A DNA stretch of 64,000 bases, taken from the NCBI RefSeq assembly GCF_007860125.1, contig NZ_SJPW01000004.1:404372-468371 (forward strand), given 5' to 3'. Made by a program: the position numbers and the translations under genes. Of the stretch, positions 2,391 through 49,502 are shown piece after piece; within the stretch, counting starts at the first letter, position 1, and the number at the start of each line of letters is the position of its first letter. Origin of the DNA: Rubripirellula tenax. GTDB taxonomy: Bacteria; Planctomycetota; Planctomycetia; Pirellulales; Pirellulaceae. Under the pieces are notes generated by a model that saw nothing but the letters and a program-made list of their open reading frames with translations, was not told the DNA's origin and did no database searches.

Positions 2391-2891
2391 ATGACTACCA
2401 AACGAGTTTTGTTTGTATGCATGGGAAACATTTGCCGATCGCCCGCTGGCGAGGCCGTCATGCAGCGTTTTGCGACGGAATTCGGCGTCGACGTGGAAGT
2501 CGATTCGGCAGGGACGCACGGCTACCACGTGGGTGACCCCGCGGACGCTCGCATGCGCGCCGCAGCCGAGGCACGTGGCTACGAACTGAACAGCCGCGGC
2601 CGGCAAGTAACGGTCGATGATTTGGCCCCCAACCGTTTCGACTTGGTTTTGGCGATGGATGCCGAAAACCACACGATCCTTCAAGAAATGGCGGGCGGGA
2701 TCAAGCCACACATACGCATGTTCAGCGACTATCTCAGCGACACGGATTGGCCCCAAGACGTCCCCGATCCGTACTACGGCGAAGCCGAGGGCTTCAAAAT
2801 GGTGCTGGACATGTTGGAGGAAGGTTGTCCGATCATCCTGCAAACGTTGATGGGCGAAGATATTTTCGCCGGCGAATTCGACGACGAGTAG
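2391..2891 (+). CDS. Low-molecular-weight protein tyrosine phosphatase
   Basis: This is a cytoplasmic LMW-PTP of 166 residues, typical for the family, which removes phosphate through a cysteinyl-phosphate intermediate. The P-loop is CMGNICRSP at residues 10-18, with nucleophile Cys10 and Arg16, and the general acid is Asp126 in DPYYG. The isoleucine at position 14 and the two tyrosines after the DP motif are features of true tyrosine phosphatases. In contrast, the phosphatase domain at 16.1-17.3 kb has threonine at the equivalent of Ile14. The gene stands alone, next to a convergent thioredoxin-like gene. The tail is acidic (EFDDE). Possible substrates include tyrosine kinases of exopolysaccharide export, but no such genes are nearby. 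Confidence 0.9.
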   Translation: MTTKRVLFVCMGNICRSPAGEAVMQRFATEFGVDVEVDSAGTHGYHVGDPADARMRAAAEARGYELNSRGRQVTVDDLAPNRFDLVLAMDAENHTILQEMAGGIKPHIRMFSDYLSDTDWPQDVPDPYYGEAEGFKMVLDMLEEGCPIILQTLMGEDIFAGEFDDE

Positions 2892-16146: not shown

Positions 16147-17283
16147 ATGTCTAAAATTCTTGACCTCCGTGCGACCGATGACCCTCGTGACATCGTCCAT
16201 CGGTCGGTCCAGGCATTGGTCGAGGGAGGCGTCGTGGGTGTGCCAACCGACACGGTATACGGGCTGGCCGCGAGCGCACTTTCCGAGATGGCCGTCGCTC
16301 GATTGTGCGAGATCAAAGGCAGGAACCAATCTGTGCCGCTAGCGATTTCGGTGCCCAGTCGCGAAGCGGCCGAGGATTTTTACTGCGGCATCGCCCCTTT
16401 GGCCCGTCGCTTGGCGGCTCGATGCTGGCCGGGCCCGTTGACATTGGTGATTCCCTGCGATTCGAAGCATTCGGCGGCCAATCAGCTGCCTCGATCGGTT
16501 CAGGAGCGGATTCGCGGCGAGTTCGGATGCGTGGGCTTCCGGGTCGTCGATCATCGTGTTATTTCGCATATTCACCGGTTTTTGTCGGCTCCATTGCTGT
16601 TGACGAGTGCCAATTTGTCGGGACAGCCGGTCGCCACCACGGCTGAACAGGTCGAGAAGCAATTGGGGGATTCGATCCCACTGCTGCTCGACGATGGTCC
16701 GACCCGTTATGGTGATGCTTCAACGGTTGCTCGTGTGAGGGGCAATCAAATGGAAATTCTTCGTGAGGGCGTCATCGAGCGAGCCGCCATGAACCAATTC
16801 ATCAAACCCGTTATCGCCTTAGTCTGCACCGGCAACACGTGTCGAAGTCCGATGGCCGAGACGCTGCTGCGTGACTTAGCCAGTAAGAAATACGGCTGTG
16901 AGGATGCTGTGCGGGTCGTATCGGCGGGTGTCGCAGCGGGCCCCGGCAGCGGCGCGACTCCCCAGGCGATCGAAGTCATGGGCAATCGCGGCCTCGACTT
17001 GACCGGGCATTGCAGCCAGCCACTGGACGATTCAGTCATTGGCGTCGCAGATTTGGTGCTGACGATGACACGTGGTCACCGGGCGGCAATCTTGGCGGCT
17101 TGGCCGGGACTGCACGATCGCGTCTTTACCTTGCGCCGCGACGGCGGCGACATCGCGGATCCGGTCGGCATGCCGGTCGATGTTTATGAAGCGTGCGCGG
17201 ATCAAATCGAGGGCGAACTTCGCGCCTGGATCGATTCGCTCGGCGACGATTTTTTCCCCGACGCTGCAACCGATCAAGCTTAG
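16147..17283 (+). CDS. Sua5/TsaC threonylcarbamoyl-AMP synthase fused to a YwlE-type phosphatase
   Basis: This 378-residue protein joins two enzymes. Residues about 10-212 are the YrdC/Sua5 domain that makes threonylcarbamoyl-AMP for tRNA t6A37 synthesis, with PTDTVYGL (33-40), the KGR motif (57-59), WPGPLTLV (94-101), SAN (154-156) and STVAR (192-196). Residues about 221-365 are a low-molecular-weight phosphatase with CTGNTCRSPMAE: nucleophile Cys227, Thr231, Arg233, and general acid Asp338 in DIADP. The threonine at the position of YwlE Thr11, and the DxxDP acid loop, are features of the Bacillus protein-arginine phosphatase rather than of tyrosine phosphatases. The Sua5 part lacks the extra C-terminal Sua5 domain, so it is TsaC-like. 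rpiB follows 13 bases later, matching the Bacillus ywlC-ywlE-ywlF order. Confidence 0.92.
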   Translation: MSKILDLRATDDPRDIVHRSVQALVEGGVVGVPTDTVYGLAASALSEMAVARLCEIKGRNQSVPLAISVPSREAAEDFYCGIAPLARRLAARCWPGPLTLVIPCDSKHSAANQLPRSVQERIRGEFGCVGFRVVDHRVISHIHRFLSAPLLLTSANLSGQPVATTAEQVEKQLGDSIPLLLDDGPTRYGDASTVARVRGNQMEILREGVIERAAMNQFIKPVIALVCTGNTCRSPMAETLLRDLASKKYGCEDAVRVVSAGVAAGPGSGATPQAIEVMGNRGLDLTGHCSQPLDDSVIGVADLVLTMTRGHRAAILAAWPGLHDRVFTLRRDGGDIADPVGMPVDVYEACADQIEGELRAWIDSLGDDFFPDAATDQA

Positions 17284-17296
17284 AAACGAGGCTCCC

Positions 17297-17785
17297 ATGT
17301 TAAAAATCGCAATCGGCAGTGATCATCGTGGCGTCAAAATCAAGAACCGCTTGGTGCAGAACCTGACCGCAGCCGGTTTCCCGGTTTGCGACCTGGGTTC
17401 GCATGGCGAAAGCTCCGTTGACTATCCCGATTATGCCAAAGCCGTTGCAATGCAAGTGGGCAGCGGAGAGTCGGACCGCGGTATCTTGATTTGCGGTACC
17501 GGAATCGGCATGTCGATCGCGGCCAATAAGTTCACGGGTGTTCGTGCCGCATCCTGCTATGACGAAGTGATGGTCGAAATCAGCCGCCGCCACAACGACG
17601 TCAATGTGCTGTGTCTTCCCGGTGACATGATCGGTGATCGGCCCATCGACGATTTGGTATTGATGTGGCTGAATACAGAATTTGATGGCGGCCGACACGC
17701 TGTTAGGATCAAAAAAATCAGTGATATCGAAAAGCTCGACTCACGCGCCGCATCGTCCAGTCCGGTCGTACAAGACCCGTCATGA
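17297..17785 (+). CDS. rpiB: Ribose-5-phosphate isomerase B
   Basis: This cytoplasmic sugar-phosphate isomerase of the RpiB/LacAB family interconverts ribose 5-phosphate and ribulose 5-phosphate in the pentose phosphate pathway. It has 162 residues, near the family norm. Conserved elements are IAIGSDHRG with Asp9 and His10, the catalytic Cys66 in ICGTGIGMSIAANK (65-78), ASCYD (86-89) and His99 in SRRHNDVNVLCL. ATG at 17297 begins the family N-terminus exactly; a longer upstream frame runs into the fusion gene and was rejected. The stop overlaps the holB start by four bases (ATGA), which implies translational coupling. Confidence 0.93.
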   Translation: MLKIAIGSDHRGVKIKNRLVQNLTAAGFPVCDLGSHGESSVDYPDYAKAVAMQVGSGESDRGILICGTGIGMSIAANKFTGVRAASCYDEVMVEISRRHNDVNVLCLPGDMIGDRPIDDLVLMWLNTEFDGGRHAVRIKKISDIEKLDSRAASSSPVVQDPS

Positions 17786-42721: not shown

Positions 42722-44257
42722 CTACTTGCTGACGCGTGCGACCGTCATTTCGACGGCGGTGATCAGGGCTCGGGCTTTGTTGACGGTTTCTTCGTATTCG
42801 GCCGTGGGATTGCTGTCTGCGACGACGCCGCATCCAGATTGAACATAAACGGTGTCGTTTTTGATCACCATGGTTCGCAGCGCGATGCAAGTATCCATGT
42901 TGCCGCGGTAATCGATGTACCCGACTGCGCCTCCGTAGGGGCCACGTCGATGCGGTTCGATCGAATCGATAACCTCCATCGCGCGAACTTTGGGAGCGCC
43001 GGAAACGGTACCGGCCGGCAAACAGGCTTTCAGGGCATCAAACGCATCGAGTCCGTCTCGCAATTTCCCTTGCACTTCACTGCTGATGTGCATGACATGG
43101 CTGTACCTTTCGACGACCATGATTTCGGTCAACTCGACGGTACCAAACTGTGCCACGCGGCCGACATCGTTGCGTCCCAGATCGACCAACATGACGTGCT
43201 CAGCCCGCTCTTTCGGATCGGCCAACAACTCGATTTCCAGCTTCCGATCTTCGCGTGCGTCTTTCCCTCGTCGGCGCGTCCCCGCCAGCGGTCGCACTGT
43301 CACTGTTCGGTCCGACACACGGCACATGATTTCGGGCGAGCAACCGACCAAGACGCAATCGGGCGTTCGCACAAAAAACATGAACGGGCTTGGGTTCACG
43401 ACGCGCAGCGAGCGATAAATCTCAAGCGGATCGACGTCGGTTTTCACCGCCCATCGCTGACTGGGCACGACTTGAAAGATGTCTCCGGCGCGAATGTATT
43501 CCACACAGGTTTCAACAGCCGCTTCGAACGAAGCCTGTGTAAAGTTGGCTTCGATTTCCAGTGGCGATCGGTCGATCGTTTCCTGCCACGCTGTCGGATT
43601 CCATTCGTCAGGCGTCAGTCCCGTTTGGCGCGACGACAGTTGGGCAATCGTTGCGTGGATACGGGCACACGCGGACTGATAAATCGCATCGGCTTCACCG
43701 GCGCTACCGACTTGCCGGCAATCGGCCAGCGAAACGATCGTGATCGTTTTGTCGACATGGTCGAAAACGCAAAGCGTGTGATAGAACCCAAAATCTAAAT
43801 CGGGGATATCGCGATCATCGGTCGGGGCGTTGGGCAGTTTTTCGACGTAGCGAACTACGTCATAGCCCGCATAGCCGACCGCCCCACCGACAAATGGCGG
43901 CAGCCCCTTCATCTTGGCGACCGAGTAGTGGAAGTGGGCGCGAAATTCGTCCAACGGGTCGGCGGCTTGGCGAGTTTCCGTGGTACCGTCGGCTTCAATG
44001 ATCGAGATCGCTTGGCCTCGCGCGACGAACCGTCGAATCGGTTTCGAGGCCAGGATGCTGAACCGGCCGACCTTTTCACCGCCGATCACACTTTCGAATA
44101 AACACGCCGGGCCGCCATCGTCAAGCAGCCGAAACGCGGTCACCGGCGTCAGCGTATCGCTTAGCAAACGGCGGTAGACGGGGACAAAGTCGTGCTCGAC
44201 CGCAAGATCGGCGAAGTCGGCAGCCACCGGTGTGTGCCGTGCGTCAGGCGTGTGCAT
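42722..44257 (-). CDS. trpE: Anthranilate synthase component I
   Basis: The product (511 residues) makes anthranilate from chorismate with a glutaminase partner, the first step of tryptophan synthesis. The N-terminal regulatory part has FRLLDDGGPACLFESVIGGEKVGRFSILASKP, with the tryptophan-binding LLES-like region (CLFESV). The chorismate-binding core shows AGDIFQVVPSQR, NPSPFMFFV, GCSPEIMCRV, VRPLAGTRRRG, LVDLGRNDVGRVA, SHVMHISSEVQG, LPAGTVSGAPKVRAMEVID and RRGPYGGAVGYIDYRGNMDTCIALRT. ATG at 44257 fits the family; the long upstream extension was rejected. The glutaminase gene trpG is not adjacent. Divergent from mcsA. Confidence 0.92.
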   Translation of the reverse strand: MHTPDARHTPVAADFADLAVEHDFVPVYRRLLSDTLTPVTAFRLLDDGGPACLFESVIGGEKVGRFSILASKPIRRFVARGQAISIIEADGTTETRQAADPLDEFRAHFHYSVAKMKGLPPFVGGAVGYAGYDVVRYVEKLPNAPTDDRDIPDLDFGFYHTLCVFDHVDKTITIVSLADCRQVGSAGEADAIYQSACARIHATIAQLSSRQTGLTPDEWNPTAWQETIDRSPLEIEANFTQASFEAAVETCVEYIRAGDIFQVVPSQRWAVKTDVDPLEIYRSLRVVNPSPFMFFVRTPDCVLVGCSPEIMCRVSDRTVTVRPLAGTRRRGKDAREDRKLEIELLADPKERAEHVMLVDLGRNDVGRVAQFGTVELTEIMVVERYSHVMHISSEVQGKLRDGLDAFDALKACLPAGTVSGAPKVRAMEVIDSIEPHRRGPYGGAVGYIDYRGNMDTCIALRTMVIKNDTVYVQSGCGVVADSNPTAEYEETVNKARALITAVEMTVARVSK

Positions 44258-44565
44258 CAAAGCGTGGGGGCAAAAAGTGTTGTCAGGATCAGGAAGAATT
44301 CGTCGATCGATCGGTTCAACATGATAGGCAGAAGTCGGCCGGTGCGGCAGCCAGCGCGGAATCCGGTGCATCAGCCACACCCGCACCTTCGTTGACAGTA
44401 ACAGGGCCAGCGATAGAATCCATAGGTGGTTGGTAGGACGCCGACGGGTTTGCCGATTCGGGGCATTTATCGCAAAAATGCTCGGCTTATTGCTTCCCCA
44501 TTGTCCCAAGGGGTCGGCTTCTCGATCTCGCAGTAACAGCCGCAATCGGCCCATCGGAAGCAATC
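44258..44565. other. Divergent promoter region between trpE and mcsA
   Basis: These 308 bases separate two divergent start codons and must hold promoters for both. I see no leader-peptide attenuator with tryptophan codons before trpE, no T-box and no clear repeat. Confidence 0.5.
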
Positions 44566-45129
44566 ATGAAATGCCAATACTGCGAAAAACCCGCGACCTT
44601 TCATATCACCGAGTTGACCGAACCGAGTGGCCCCCAAGTGATGCACTTGTGCGAGGAGCACGCTCGCGGGTTTCTGCAAAAAGACAACGCTAGCCCGGCT
44701 GTTTCCGTCGCCGGCGCATTGGCAAAACAACTCAACTTGGGCCAAACCAAGAAAGAGCTTGCGGAACTGGACCAAAAAGAATGTCCGGTTTGCGGCATCA
44801 GTTTCTTTGAGTTCCGAAGCACCGGGCGTCTCGGCTGCCCCTACGATTACACACACTTCGAGGCTGACCTCGAACCGTTATTGATCAACATCCACGATTC
44901 GCTTGAGCATTGCGGCAAACGCCCCCGCCGCGCTGCTGCATCGGCAGACTCCCAGGCAACCATGATCCAACTGCGACGCGAAATGGAAGAAGCGATCGAA
45001 CGAGAAGACTACGAACGGGCATCGGAAATTCGCGACGAGCTTCGGAAGATCGAAGATGCGGGAACTCGGCCCGTCGATAGCGACAAGTCCGACAGCTCGG
45101 CTTCCGCTTCGGGAGACGAGTCGAAGTGA
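44566..45129 (+). CDS. mcsA: McsA-like activator of the arginine kinase
   Basis: The 187-residue product matches McsA, which in Firmicutes binds and activates the protein-arginine kinase McsB. Cysteine pairs for zinc binding are CQYC (3-6), HLCEEH (27-32), CPVC (73-76) and Cys91. The stretch NLGQTKKELAELDQKECPVCGISFFEFRSTGRLGCPYDYTHF is characteristic. A UvrB/UvrC-type motif at about 133-165 (QLRREMEEAIEREDYERASEIRDELRKIE) follows. The tail is Ser/Asp-rich. The stop overlaps the mcsB start by four bases (GTGA). Many databases call such proteins UVR-domain proteins or excinuclease-like; the gene pair argues for McsA. Confidence 0.9.
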   Translation: MKCQYCEKPATFHITELTEPSGPQVMHLCEEHARGFLQKDNASPAVSVAGALAKQLNLGQTKKELAELDQKECPVCGISFFEFRSTGRLGCPYDYTHFEADLEPLLINIHDSLEHCGKRPRRAAASADSQATMIQLRREMEEAIEREDYERASEIRDELRKIEDAGTRPVDSDKSDSSASASGDESK

Positions 45130-46214
45130 AACGCAACACGGACTTCAGCGAACTGGCACGGCACTCGGGCGAATGGCTTCGTGGGACCGGTCCGGAATCG
45201 GACATCGTGATCAGCAGCCGCATCCGCTTGGCTCGCAACCTTGCCGATTTTCCTTTCATTCGTCGCTGCAGCGACGAAGATCGAATCAGCATCGAACGGA
45301 CCGTTCGTGCACGAATGGAAGCGATCGAGGGCTGGCAAGATATCCGCTACGTCGACATCGAACAGCTTTCCGAGATTGATCGTCAGTTCTTGGTCGAACG
45401 CCAACTGATCAGCCGCGAAATCGCTGATGCCGACGGTTCTCGTGCGGTCGCGATTGATCCGAACGAGCAATACAGCGTGATGATCAACGAAGAAGATCAC
45501 TTGCGTATCCAGGTCATGCACAGCGGTTTGGATCTGAGTTCGGCATGGGATCGCATCAACGCGCTCGACGACCAACTGGAAGGCACGATTCTTTACGCCT
45601 ACAGTCAAAAATACGGTTACCTGACCGCGTGCCCGACCAATGTCGGCAGCGGACTGCGTGTCAGCGTCATGCTGCACCTGCCGGCCCTGGTGATCACGCA
45701 ACAAATCGAAAAAGTGTTCCGCAGCATGCAGCGGATCAACGTCACGGTCCGCGGGCTATACGGCGAAGGATCCCAGTACACGGGTGACTTCTATCAAGTC
45801 AGCAACCAGATCACGCTCGGTCACAGCGAGACGGACCTGGTGGCCTTGGTCGGCGAAAACGTCGTTCCGCGGATCATCGAATACGAACGCAAGGCTCGCG
45901 ATTTCCTGGTCAGCCAAGGCGAAAAGGATCTGCACGACGACGTCAGCCGAGCGTTGGGGATCCTAAGCACGGCAAAAAAGATCAGCAGCGAAGAAACGAT
46001 GCACTATTTGTCGAAAGTTCGCATGGGGGTGAACCTGGGGCTGATCAATGACGTTGCGGTCGGAACGATCAACAAGCTGTTCATTCATACGCAACCGGCC
46101 CACCTACAGAAGCTGCACGGTCGTCTGTTGGGTTCGTCAGACCGAAACGTCGAACGAGCCACGTATCTGCAACGTCACTTGGCCGGACCCGTGGGCAACG
46201 GCGAACTAAACTGA
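45126..46214 (+). CDS. mcsB: Protein-arginine kinase McsB
   Basis: McsB phosphorylates arginine side chains of proteins, marking them for ClpCP-type degradation in Bacillus. The product has 362 residues, almost the same as Bacillus McsB. Motifs of the phosphagen-kinase fold are SSRIRLARNL (30-39), INEEDHLRIQ (120-129, Glu122/Glu123), CPTNVGSGLRVS with the active-site Cys169, and the nucleotide-binding RGLYGEGSQ (Glu214). Near the C-terminus, RNVERA (340-345) corresponds to the allosteric phosphoarginine-sensing RDxxRA motif, with Asn for Asp. It lacks the N-terminal substrate-binding domain of creatine/arginine kinases. A ClpC or CtsR gene is not in the window. It is translationally coupled to mcsA. 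Confidence 0.93.
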   Translation: MKRNTDFSELARHSGEWLRGTGPESDIVISSRIRLARNLADFPFIRRCSDEDRISIERTVRARMEAIEGWQDIRYVDIEQLSEIDRQFLVERQLISREIADADGSRAVAIDPNEQYSVMINEEDHLRIQVMHSGLDLSSAWDRINALDDQLEGTILYAYSQKYGYLTACPTNVGSGLRVSVMLHLPALVITQQIEKVFRSMQRINVTVRGLYGEGSQYTGDFYQVSNQITLGHSETDLVALVGENVVPRIIEYERKARDFLVSQGEKDLHDDVSRALGILSTAKKISSEETMHYLSKVRMGVNLGLINDVAVGTINKLFIHTQPAHLQKLHGRLLGSSDRNVERATYLQRHLAGPVGNGELN

Positions 46215-46965: not shown

Positions 46966-47415
46966 TCACTTGGAGGATGCTTTGACTATGGTCGGGCTCG
47001 AAGGCTTGATGCCACCGGTCGATCCAACGCTTGAGCTGCTGCCTTTGGCCAGGGCTTCGACGTCGATCACGCGAGTGATAGCCGGTGTTTTCGATCCTTC
47101 GTAAAGAAAGACTTGGACCATCGTCGTCGTCTTCGACATCGGGCGAAGTTCAATCCAGTGAGCCGAACTCGACCCTTTTTCGCGAATTTCTCCGCTGAGC
47201 GTGGGATCAAGCCTCAGCATCGCAAGCGACCGCTGCATCAAACCATCTGCGAACACACGGCCTTGGACCGCCGAACGAGTCGCGTCGACACGCTGAACGG
47301 CCAATTGATTGCTGCGGACAATCGCAATCGTAGCCATCGAGAGGATGGCTGCGGCAAGCGTGCAAATCAGCAGTGCCGATCCGCGGCGATCAAGTCGGCG
47401 TCGTTGACGTTTCAT
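46966..47415 (-). CDS. GspK-like minor pseudopilin
   Basis: This 149-residue protein is the last of five pseudopilin genes. The leader MKRQRRRLDRRG ends in glycine and is followed by SALLICTLAAAILSMATIAIV. It lacks the glutamate at +5, a known property of the tip pseudopilin GspK. It is, however, only about half the usual GspK length, so the large alpha domain is missing. ATG at 47415 was chosen because it starts the basic leader; the longer frame is unlikely. It lies 46 bases downstream of the preceding pseudopilin gene. Confidence 0.7.
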   Translation of the reverse strand: MKRQRRRLDRRGSALLICTLAAAILSMATIAIVRSNQLAVQRVDATRSAVQGRVFADGLMQRSLAMLRLDPTLSGEIREKGSSSAHWIELRPMSKTTTMVQVFLYEGSKTPAITRVIDVEALAKGSSSSVGSTGGIKPSSPTIVKASSK

Positions 47416-47461
47416 GGCATCAATCATTTCGGGATGGTTATTCCAGGCCTGCAAAACGCTT

Positions 47462-47947
47462 CTAGGTTTGCACGAGGGTCGAGACGTACGATTCAATCTT
47501 GTAGTACTCGCCCGATTCGGGGTCTTTGACACCGATGCGAATGGCAACACCGATCGGCAATCCTGGCTTTTCGGATTGAACGATCGATTCGCATTCGAAT
47601 GAACCGACGTTTTCAAGGATGACCGTCTTGGTGCGTCCGTCCGATAGAATCAAACGGTCGGAATCGAAAACGATCTCGGCCTTATCGCCGCTGGCCAGGA
47701 TCAAGGTCAAATTCCGCGAACCGACATCGATCACCGTGCCGGTTTGAATCGTTTCCTTGACCCACCGCAAGGCCGATCGTGTTTGGACTTCCGCATCGAC
47801 GTTGGACGCACGACCGATCGCGCGAGCGGATGCCCGAATCACGCTAGCGACGGGAACGACCATGACAGCGACAATGGCCGTGCAGGCGATCACTTCGATC
47901 AGGCTAACGCCACGTCTCGGTTTCAATTGTTTCTTTTGCGTTTTCAT
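47462..47947 (-). CDS. Type II secretion pseudopilin (GspI/J-like)
   Basis: The product has 161 residues with a prepilin leader MKTQKKQLKPRRG followed by VSLIEVIACTAIVAVMVVPVASVI; the glutamate at +5 is present. The mature domain is beta-rich (IVFDSDRLILSDGRTKTVILENVGSFECESI), as in minor pseudopilins I or J. The ATG shares its A with the stop of the upstream gene (TAATG), so translation is coupled. Confidence 0.75.
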   Translation of the reverse strand: MKTQKKQLKPRRGVSLIEVIACTAIVAVMVVPVASVIRASARAIGRASNVDAEVQTRSALRWVKETIQTGTVIDVGSRNLTLILASGDKAEIVFDSDRLILSDGRTKTVILENVGSFECESIVQSEKPGLPIGVAIRIGVKDPESGEYYKIESYVSTLVQT

Positions 47948-48411
47948 TACGGTGACGCCATTTGGGTTTGCAATGACTCACTGACTTCGGTCGCATCGAT
48001 GCGAGCGTTGCTGTTGGCATCTCGCCAAACGGTAACACGAATCGAAAGCAGTTTTGCCGTTGGCAGTGTCTTGTCGGGTTCGAGCTGGTATTGAGCCAGG
48101 AAAACCTTCCCGCTCGGCGAAACGACTTTCGTCAGATCATCGATCGGTCGATCGAATGCCGACGCAAACTCGCTGGGTTCCGACATCTTGACCTTTAGTA
48201 TTTCGATAAAGCTTTCCGCTTCGAATAGCATCGCGTCGCGATCTTCTAGACGCTGGTTGATCGATTCTGAATGCCCGATCCAACGGACCGACGGAATCAA
48301 CAACAGCGATAATAGCATCGACCCGATGGCGACATCGATCAACGTCGCGCCTTGACGCGTCGCGACGTGCCGTCTTCGGCGAACATTCGTGGAACAGTGA
48401 TGAGATTTCAT
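47947..48411 (-). CDS. Type II secretion pseudopilin with aspartate at +5
   Basis: The product has 154 residues. A long basic leader (MKSHHCSTNVRRRRHVATRQG) precedes ATLIDVAIGSMLLSLLLIPSV. Aspartate replaces the usual glutamate at position +5 of the mature form. The rest is a small beta domain (SGKVFLAQYQLEPDKTLPTAKLLSIRVTVWRDAN). By order it would be GspI or GspJ. ATG at 48411 begins the leader. Confidence 0.7.
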   Translation of the reverse strand: MKSHHCSTNVRRRRHVATRQGATLIDVAIGSMLLSLLLIPSVRWIGHSESINQRLEDRDAMLFEAESFIEILKVKMSEPSEFASAFDRPIDDLTKVVSPSGKVFLAQYQLEPDKTLPTAKLLSIRVTVWRDANSNARIDATEVSESLQTQMASP

Positions 48412-48446
48412 GATGACGATTCGAAGATAAAATTCTTGTTTTTTCG

Positions 48447-48929
48447 TTACGGAAGTCGATGAGTCACGTTTCCGTCGGTCGGTGTGACCTGGACCAACCC
48501 CGCGAGTGATCCTTCGGAAACTTTCCATTCCAAACCACGATCTGCTGACCCCGTTGCTTTGAACCAAATCTCAGTTGGCGAACCGCTAATGGTGGGTTGA
48601 TCACCCAGATCGATTTGCCATTTCTTACCTGCCCGCATTGGGCCGGCTTCCTCAACGATGGTCAGCCATTGACGACCGCGAACGTTTTCCTGACGCACCG
48701 CGACGTTCGTGCGGCTAGCGATGGCAGTGTTACGAGCAAGCACGAGCGTTTGATAGACTTCTCGAGTGACATCTGTTGCACCTCGGCGATCGCGCCATTG
48801 ACCGTCCAGCATGAACGACCCTGCAACCGTCGCGGCAGCCAAAAGCATCACCACCAATATCGTTTCAACCAACGTGACGCCAAAGCGACAACGTCGATCG
48901 AGGAAAGCGGCAGGAATGCGATGGACCAT
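48447..48929 (-). CDS. GspH-like pseudopilin
   Basis: The product has 160 residues, with leader MVHRIPAAFLDRRCRFG and helix VTLVETILVVMLLAAATVAGS; glutamate +5 is present. The region after the helix (DVTREVYQTLVLARNTAIASRTNVAVRQEN) is typical of GspH/FimT proteins. It lies between the major pseudopilin gene and the next minor one, matching gspG-gspH order. ATG at 48929 was chosen over a longer frame because it begins the leader. Confidence 0.75.
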   Translation of the reverse strand: MVHRIPAAFLDRRCRFGVTLVETILVVMLLAAATVAGSFMLDGQWRDRRGATDVTREVYQTLVLARNTAIASRTNVAVRQENVRGRQWLTIVEEAGPMRAGKKWQIDLGDQPTISGSPTEIWFKATGSADRGLEWKVSEGSLAGLVQVTPTDGNVTHRLP

Positions 48930-49061
48930 CGTTCGAAAACACCGTTTATAAAATGACAAAGGTCCGGCCAGGACAAGCACGGCCAAAGGTGCGGCCGCCA
49001 ATGCCCTGGATCGGACCCTCGGAGTCAATCAGTTCAAAGGCGTGAAAAACGCCTCCTTCAA

Positions 49062-49388
49062 TTACTTCTTGGCGAACACGCCGGTAGTCGGTACGTAGTC
49101 GTACTTGGTCCGCATCGCGGCAACGCGGCGACGTTCGTCGGTCGTTGTGTAGGGCAAGTAGCCAGACGAACCCAGCGTGGTCACGCTTTGGGGAAAACGA
49201 CCGACTTCCAAGAAGTAGGTTTGTGCCATCGCGTTGAGCGTGGCGACTTCTTGATCTTGCAGCTTGTCTTCACTCTTCGCACGCATCGGAGCAACCGTAG
49301 CAACGGTTGCGGCAGCGACGACGGCAAGGATGACGACGGCGGCGATAACTTCTAGCAGTGAGAAACCGCTTTTCTTTTGACGCTTCAT
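49062..49388 (-). CDS. GspG-like major pseudopilin
   Basis: The product has 108 residues: leader MKRQKKSG, then FSLLEVIAAVVILAVVAAATVATVAPM with Phe +1 and Glu +5. The short mature domain includes LQDQEVATLNAMAQTYFLEVGRFPQ and lacks the long calcium-binding loop of classical GspG. It is the first of five genes on this strand (order G, H, two minor, K-like). ATG at 49388 was chosen because it starts the leader. The machine's secretin may be the gene at the left edge of the window. Confidence 0.75.
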   Translation of the reverse strand: MKRQKKSGFSLLEVIAAVVILAVVAAATVATVAPMRAKSEDKLQDQEVATLNAMAQTYFLEVGRFPQSVTTLGSSGYLPYTTTDERRRVAAMRTKYDYVPTTGVFAKK

Positions 49389-49502
49389 ATTTGTAGACTC
49401 CAAGGAACGGGATGAAATGGTTTGGCTCCCTCGAACCTCCCATCTACAAGAAACCTAGGTCACGTTTTCACAGGGTGCAGAAAACGAATCGAAAAAATAC
49501 CC

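Follow-up and report, generated by a model that had tools for sequence, protein, structure and literature searches.

Does a planctomycete tag its proteins for degradation by phosphorylating arginine? The question is raised by two coupled genes in a 64,000-nucleotide stretch of Rubripirellula tenax DNA (assembly GCF_007860125.1, contig NZ_SJPW01000004.1, positions 404,372 to 468,371 of the forward strand), hereafter the window, whose own numbering is used below. An earlier note on this DNA had read them as the protein-arginine kinase McsB and its activator McsA. As a mark for degradation in bacteria, phosphoarginine has been described chiefly in Gram-positive species; should the planctomycete set prove functional, it would be a core protein-quality system across a whole Gram-negative phylum. 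Our searches of the open-licence PMC literature turned up no paper that reports McsB or phosphoarginine in planctomycetes, and a Clp passage in a heat-shock study of R. baltica mentions ClpB and ClpP, with neither McsB nor ClpC (PMC2754498). NCBI models (NCBIfam) already name such proteins.

With a probability that we put at roughly 85%, mcsA and mcsB code for a functional protein-arginine kinase and the zinc-finger protein that activates it, an inherited pair outside CtsR control that would feed ClpC-ClpP, its mark being erased by the YwlE half of a fusion protein. This reading draws on the genes, their homology, a predicted fold, residues, distribution and gene order.

Identification of the McsA-McsB pair

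The genes mcsA (44566..45129, plus strand, ATG start, 187 aa) and mcsB (45126..46214, plus strand, GTG start, 362 aa) overlap by 4 bases, and the profile and PDB matches of both open reading frames bear out the pairing. McsB passes the NCBIfam model NF002194 'protein arginine kinase' (455 bits, cut-off 385), stays below the cut-off of NF053707 'McsB' (382 bits, cut-off 500) and scores 230 bits against Pfam PF00217. Its best PDB match is the protein-arginine kinase 6fh1 (E 5.4e-83, query 16-352), which we take to be McsB of G. stearothermophilus: the match is nearly full length and spans the C-terminal phosphoarginine-receptor/dimer domain. The next solved structures are McsB of B. subtilis (query 15/16-352), then of S. 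aureus (15-322). A second PF00217 match in the genome (contig C2, 23 bits, just over the cut-off) lies antisense within a sulfatase-like ORF and was dismissed as chance.

The earlier note had named structure prediction as a way to reveal a kinase acting on a free guanidino compound instead of protein. Our model of McsB, predicted from 15 sequences with a mean pLDDT of 86.5, has the McsB fold: scored by query length, its TM-score is 0.89 to phosphoarginine-bound McsB (6fh3) versus 0.50-0.59 to arginine, creatine and other phosphagen kinases among the 50 matches listed. The N-terminal domain of about 100 residues found in single-domain phosphagen kinases is absent, query residues 18-27 aligning to chain positions from about 109 to 157.

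Upstream of mcsA lies the divergent trpE (42722..44563, minus strand), assigned by profile matches. The same arrangement occurs in 33 of 110 relative loci (L046, L087, L091 and L095 among them), from Pirellulales and a few Phycisphaerae or Phycisphaerae-like loci; these 110 are the best 30 matches of one search and the best 80 of another, and are thus biased to good matches. A sigma-70-like promoter match upstream of mcsA (44392..44419, plus strand, TTGACA-16-TAGAAT) is weak, with 1 observed against 0.7 expected from shuffles. Allowing up to 3 mismatches, we found no CIRCE element in the window or beside clpC. An ECF sigma gene 3' of mcsB was considered as a conserved partner and rejected: strong matches occur only in L046, L047 and L081, along with one weak match on the opposite strand in L113. 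Further downstream, on the minus strand at 46966-49403, clustered ORFs carry N-terminal prepilin-like motifs (GFSLLEV, GVSLIEV) and, judged by translations alone, resemble a type II secretion pseudopilin cluster.

Catalytic residues and the phosphoarginine clamp

The McsB hallmarks described before (phosphagen-kinase motifs, active-site Cys169 and a C-terminal RNVERA) are all present. Window McsB keeps C169, E123 and E214, corresponding to C167, E121 and E212 of B. subtilis. In B. subtilis numbering, residues E121, C167, E212 and R341 are identical in all 111 McsB sequences compared and R337 in 110 of them; E121, E212 and the arginine cluster are presumably the catalytic residues of McsB. Cys167 is described as the active-site cysteine of S. 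aureus McsB (PMC12467219). A protein-arginine kinase with its activator stands as the best reading of the pair, and from the families concerned we infer that McsB would act on protein arginine.

Residues tied to regulation differ in part from those of B. subtilis. In the B. subtilis McsB octamer, pArg194 of one dimer is reported to sit in the Arg337/Arg341/Ser285/Asp338 pocket of the next; the R194K substitution selectively destabilises this octamer and leaves a heat survival of 1-5%, like the deletion, versus 60% for the wild type (PMC8370763). In the window, K196 stands where B. subtilis has R194, so the protein lacks the residue of a B. subtilis-type Arg194 clamp. Position 194 is Arg in McsB of B. 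subtilis, G. stearothermophilus and S. aureus. Across the 111 sequences, 96 have Lys here, 10 Arg, 4 Gln and 1 Ser: planctomycetes have 88 Lys and 8 Arg among 96, and the 15 non-planctomycete sequences 8 Lys, 4 Gln, 2 Arg and 1 Ser. The natural change from Arg194 to Lys is the same as the engineered B. subtilis mutation that breaks heat tolerance, and planctomycetes can therefore show how the kinase is checked without a cage.

The receptor side has fared better. At the place of the RDxxRA phosphoarginine receptor, the window has R340-N341-x2-R344-A345 (RNVERA), with both arginines kept and Asp replaced by Asn. Arg337 is kept in 95 and Arg341 in all 96 planctomycete McsB; the Asp338 position is Asn in 48, Asp in 29 and another residue in 19, and it is Asp in 15/15 non-planctomycete sequences. 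As read from these alignments, then, the receptor of planctomycete McsB is largely kept and its known donor, Arg194, is gone. A nearby arginine, R199 in the window and present in many Pirellulales McsB, could serve as a substitute donor; position 190, which may play a helping part in B. subtilis, is Arg in 27/96 planctomycete sequences.

An altered zinc finger in McsA

The best PDB match of McsA is chain B of 8wtb, 'protein-arginine kinase activator protein' (E 7e-23, query 1-174); its score against NCBIfam NF053706 (105 bits) falls under the cut-off of 210. The UVR motif is found at the C-terminus (PF02151, 40 bits). The cysteine pairs ascribed to McsA need amendment: the first pair of each zinc motif is indeed C-x2-C, and the second pairs are C-x2-H and C-x2-D, giving C3-x2-C6...C29-x2-H32 for motif 1 and C73-x2-C76...C91-x2-D94 for motif 2. 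The protein next to mcsB thus has both zinc motifs and the UVR motif of an McsA, with altered fourth ligands and metal binding that is predicted.

These ligands vary among 103 McsA sequences. The fourth ligand of the first motif is Cys in 73, His in 29 and a gap in 1; that of the second is Asp in 77 and Cys in 26. By alignment to 8wtb_B, the second motif corresponds to the C-terminal zinc finger of S. aureus McsA, which has four Cys and, according to a review, brings the catalytic Cys of McsB into position (PMC12467219). In 94 of the 110 relatives, mcsA sits upstream of mcsB on the same strand at a distance of no more than 400 bases; it is further off in 8 and was not found in 8.

ClpC and ClpP are encoded elsewhere, and CtsR was not found

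A genome-wide search for ClpC with a phosphoarginine-docking N-terminal domain, suggested earlier as a check, returned a clear candidate on contig C5 (595372-598014, 880 aa), whose best solved relative is ClpC/MecB of B. subtilis with 1015 bits. It keeps both GTEH motifs with Glu32 and Glu106, described as residues of the phosphoarginine pocket of ClpC (PMC12583610); as general ClpC features, the motifs are consistent with docking and do not prove it. Two ClpP genes are found on the same contig. The other protein with a Clp_N domain, on contig C6, is 3' of a dnaK-like gene and, unlike ClpC, has no UVR motif; we take it, from these features, to be ClpB. The N-terminal domain of ClpC was detected in 147/147 genomes, and in 146 the E-value was under 1e-50. 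The remaining genome (G162) has a weak match (E 1e-13) and is also without a PF00217 match.

In the window's lineage clpC is not linked to mcsB. Among the 100 relative loci with room to see (10 more, with fewer than 700 bases downstream, were left out), clpC follows mcsB in the same orientation in 31, 28 of them at gaps below 200 bases and the others at 521, 1745 and 1745. By group, this holds for 16/85 planctomycete loci, 3/3 loci of other groups and all of the Omnitrophota loci (12/12, found through likeness to the query).

The note had remarked that the CtsR regulator is not linked to the pair, and the negative result extends much further: the CtsR profile (PF05848) found nothing in the whole genome and matched 0/294 planctomycete genomes, in a search where, among 14 control genomes, only Lactococcus matched and the Bacillus subtilis control did not. 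That control, which we would expect to carry ctsR-mcsA-mcsB-clpC, had no match for PF00217, PF02861 or PF05848, yet it matches LMWPc and ClpP; the control sequence thus seems to lack that stretch. None of the control genomes matched PF00217, so they were not used to judge that search.

A candidate eraser fused to TsaC

Previously put forward as a candidate eraser, the phosphatase domain at 16.1-17.3 kb is real and forms one half of a larger protein. The gene at 16147..17283 (plus strand) encodes, by profile and PDB matches, a TsaC/Sua5 domain (aa 23-208) followed by a YwlE-type phosphatase (aa 223-361). The best PDB matches of this low-molecular-weight phosphatase half are YwlE structures (E 3e-26), and its P-loop, CTGNTCRS, has the YwlE-type Thr at the specificity position. 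Thr at this place is reported to direct the enzyme to phosphoarginine, and Ile to phosphotyrosine (PMC8001253). A second low-molecular-weight phosphatase (2391..2891, plus strand), with the P-loop CMGNICRS and thus the Ile of the tyrosine-phosphatase type, was set aside as eraser and serves as a contrast case. Candidates for activator, writer and eraser are therefore all in the window, as had been suggested, with ClpC on another contig.

The fusion is widespread. Its full-length query matched 240/244 planctomycete genomes, in at least 136 of which both halves fall in one match. Fusion state was judged in 150 of the 244, the window's genome included: 136 are fused in one match, in 12 a partial match lies within an open frame of at least 340 aa, and 2 are unfused. 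In the 30 best fusion loci (the window being one of them) the P-loop Thr is invariant, with 29 CxGNTCRS and 1 CTGNTDRS, and 27 have rpiB after the fusion on the same strand; in the window, rpiB (17297..17785, plus strand) follows directly 3' with a gap of 13 bases. We found no report of a YwlE-Sua5 fusion in the open-licence PMC literature. The fusion itself invites the speculation that removal of the mark is tied to t6A synthesis; if true, the fusion would tie it to ATP, threonine and translation status.

Genomes without McsB were also inspected. Twenty of 21 were searched for the fusion or YwlE, 7 of them at least 85% complete. Taking the best-scoring match in each of these seven, four (G004, G026, G028, G107) are without a Thr-type P-loop and three have the fusion: G162 and G189 with CTGNTDRS, G263 with CTGNTCRS. 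In the 13 less complete genomes the best matches comprise 5 CxGNTCRS, 3 fusions with Ser at the specificity position and 3 unfused weak matches with Ser or Ile there, and 2 genomes gave no match. With few genomes and kinship uncorrected, these counts give hints of a joint loss of McsB and Thr-type YwlE. ClpC matches strongly in the four genomes that lack both McsB and a Thr-type best match, so it has a role that does not need McsB.

The form CTGNTDRS, in which Asp replaces the second P-loop Cys, is that of family f62 (L155/G245, L165/G189, L166/G162), two of whose three genomes here, G189 and G162, are without detectable McsB.

Distribution and phylogeny

PF00217 was detected in 371 of 392 planctomycete genomes, with no match in 21, and in 212/217 of those with at least 90% completeness and at most 5% contamination. 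A tree of 114 McsB was built with a quick method and holds three Bacillota sequences, one on a long branch. In it a branch with support 100 sets the 96 planctomycete sequences (counting L069, titled just 'bacterium') apart, with Omnitrophota as their neighbours, and the inner order of the 96 largely follows taxonomy. Presence in nearly all genomes and a single clade indicate that the arginine-phosphorylation set is apparently a core, inherited system of Planctomycetota.

Weaker, divergent PF00217 matches occur in two genomes of the same genus (G311 and G331, E about 1e-27) and in family f59 (about 1e-39 to 1e-47). These are possibly degenerating McsB.

Proposed pathway and alternative explanations

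We propose the following pathway for R. tenax, its activity, substrates, degradation step and control being projected from homologous proteins. McsA would activate McsB, which would use ATP to phosphorylate arginine side chains on damaged or regulatory proteins. The ClpC found elsewhere in the genome would dock phosphoarginine with its N-terminal domain and pass the tagged protein on to ClpP, and the mark would be removed by the YwlE half of the TsaC-YwlE fusion. The system would operate outside CtsR control, and most planctomycete McsB would do so without the arginine that locks the cage as pArg194. With this lock missing, McsA, further autophosphorylated arginines or the fused eraser may do the gating. 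An uncaged kinase would have to be restrained in some other way, for which the fused eraser and the altered zinc finger of McsA are candidates. The earlier note supposed that control may differ here; with CtsR not found, Lys for Arg194 and the eraser fused to TsaC, it probably does differ from that of B. subtilis.

Could the kinase instead buffer ATP through a free guanidino compound? It has the PF00217 catalytic domain in common with phosphagen kinases, and arginine and taurocyamine kinases also match it; such a role is nonetheless very unlikely, as the N-terminal domain of about 100 residues is missing, the McsB C-terminal domain is present, the fold is much closer to McsB and mcsA adjoins in 94/110 loci. 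A protein-arginine kinase devoted to signalling or transcription control, not to ClpCP degradation, would suit the unlinked clpC of the window's lineage, and in B. subtilis McsB reportedly inhibits the repressor CtsR (work ascribed to Fuhrmann, 2009). We consider this improbable: CtsR was found neither in this genome nor in 294 planctomycete genomes, and clpC lies 3' of mcsB in 16/85 planctomycete and 12/12 Omnitrophota loci.

A recent horizontal gain from Bacillota, maybe decaying or idle, is the reading we disfavour most. The characterised relatives are from Bacillota and a horizontal origin has been suggested for the Chlamydia genes (PMC10128030), but against such a gain stand the presence in 371/392 genomes, the single clade with an inner order close to taxonomy in a tree with three Bacillota sequences, the divergent trpE upstream in 33/110 loci from Pirellulales and a few Phycisphaerae, and the invariance of the catalytic residues. 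An inherited McsA-McsB pair that feeds ClpC-ClpP remains our preferred reading. More tentatively, and with the odds rather against it, Planctomycetota and Omnitrophota may both have an old, vertically inherited and CtsR-free phosphoarginine degradation system, whose kinase would be natively uncaged and whose selectivity would come from the altered zinc finger of McsA, joined in Planctomycetota by the TsaC-fused eraser; the CtsR and fusion searches behind this idea covered Planctomycetota only, not Omnitrophota.

Comparison with known systems

The closest known system is McsA-McsB-ClpCP with YwlE/PtpB of B. subtilis, G. stearothermophilus and S. aureus (6fh1-3, 6tv6, 8wtb, 8gqd). Both have the kinase fold, the catalytic residues, the C-terminal receptor domain, McsA with zinc motifs and UVR, ClpC, ClpP and a YwlE-type P-loop with Thr; some relatives of the window also have the order mcsA-mcsB-clpC, as reported for B. 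subtilis. The window differs from Bacillota in that CtsR was not found, Lys replaces Arg194, Asn replaces Asp338, Asp is the fourth ligand in the second zinc motif of McsA, YwlE is fused to TsaC and clpC is unlinked. In the cluster ywlC-ywlD-ywlE-ywlF(rpiB) of B. subtilis, the genes of TsaC, YwlE and RpiB are, we take it, neighbours, whereas TsaC and YwlE make one polypeptide in the window, with rpiB 13 bases after it. Phosphagen kinases (arginine, creatine, taurocyamine) are more distant: they have in common with McsB the ATP:guanido phosphotransferase catalytic domain, but McsB is without their N-terminal substrate domain, has an extra C-terminal domain and gives a clearly lower fold score to them.

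Chlamydia belongs to the same superphylum as the planctomycetes. The earlier statement that the pathway is established for Firmicutes is correct but incomplete, since McsAB orthologs of Chlamydia are also in print, as is a chlamydial ClpCP that degraded arginine-phosphorylated, and not plain, casein (PMC10128030). McsAB/ClpC of Chlamydia trachomatis resembles the present case: the organism is Gram-negative and of the PVC group, and its mcsAB operon lies apart from clpC (PMC10128030). The chlamydial mcsAB is flanked by tRNAs and horizontal gain was suggested for it (PMC10128030), in contrast to the phylum-wide clade of planctomycetes. The planctomycete set is a variant of the pathway known from Bacillota and Chlamydia, and what is new in it is the fused eraser, the clpC after mcsB in some lineages, Lys at position 194 in most McsB and the lack of any CtsR match in the 294 genomes searched.
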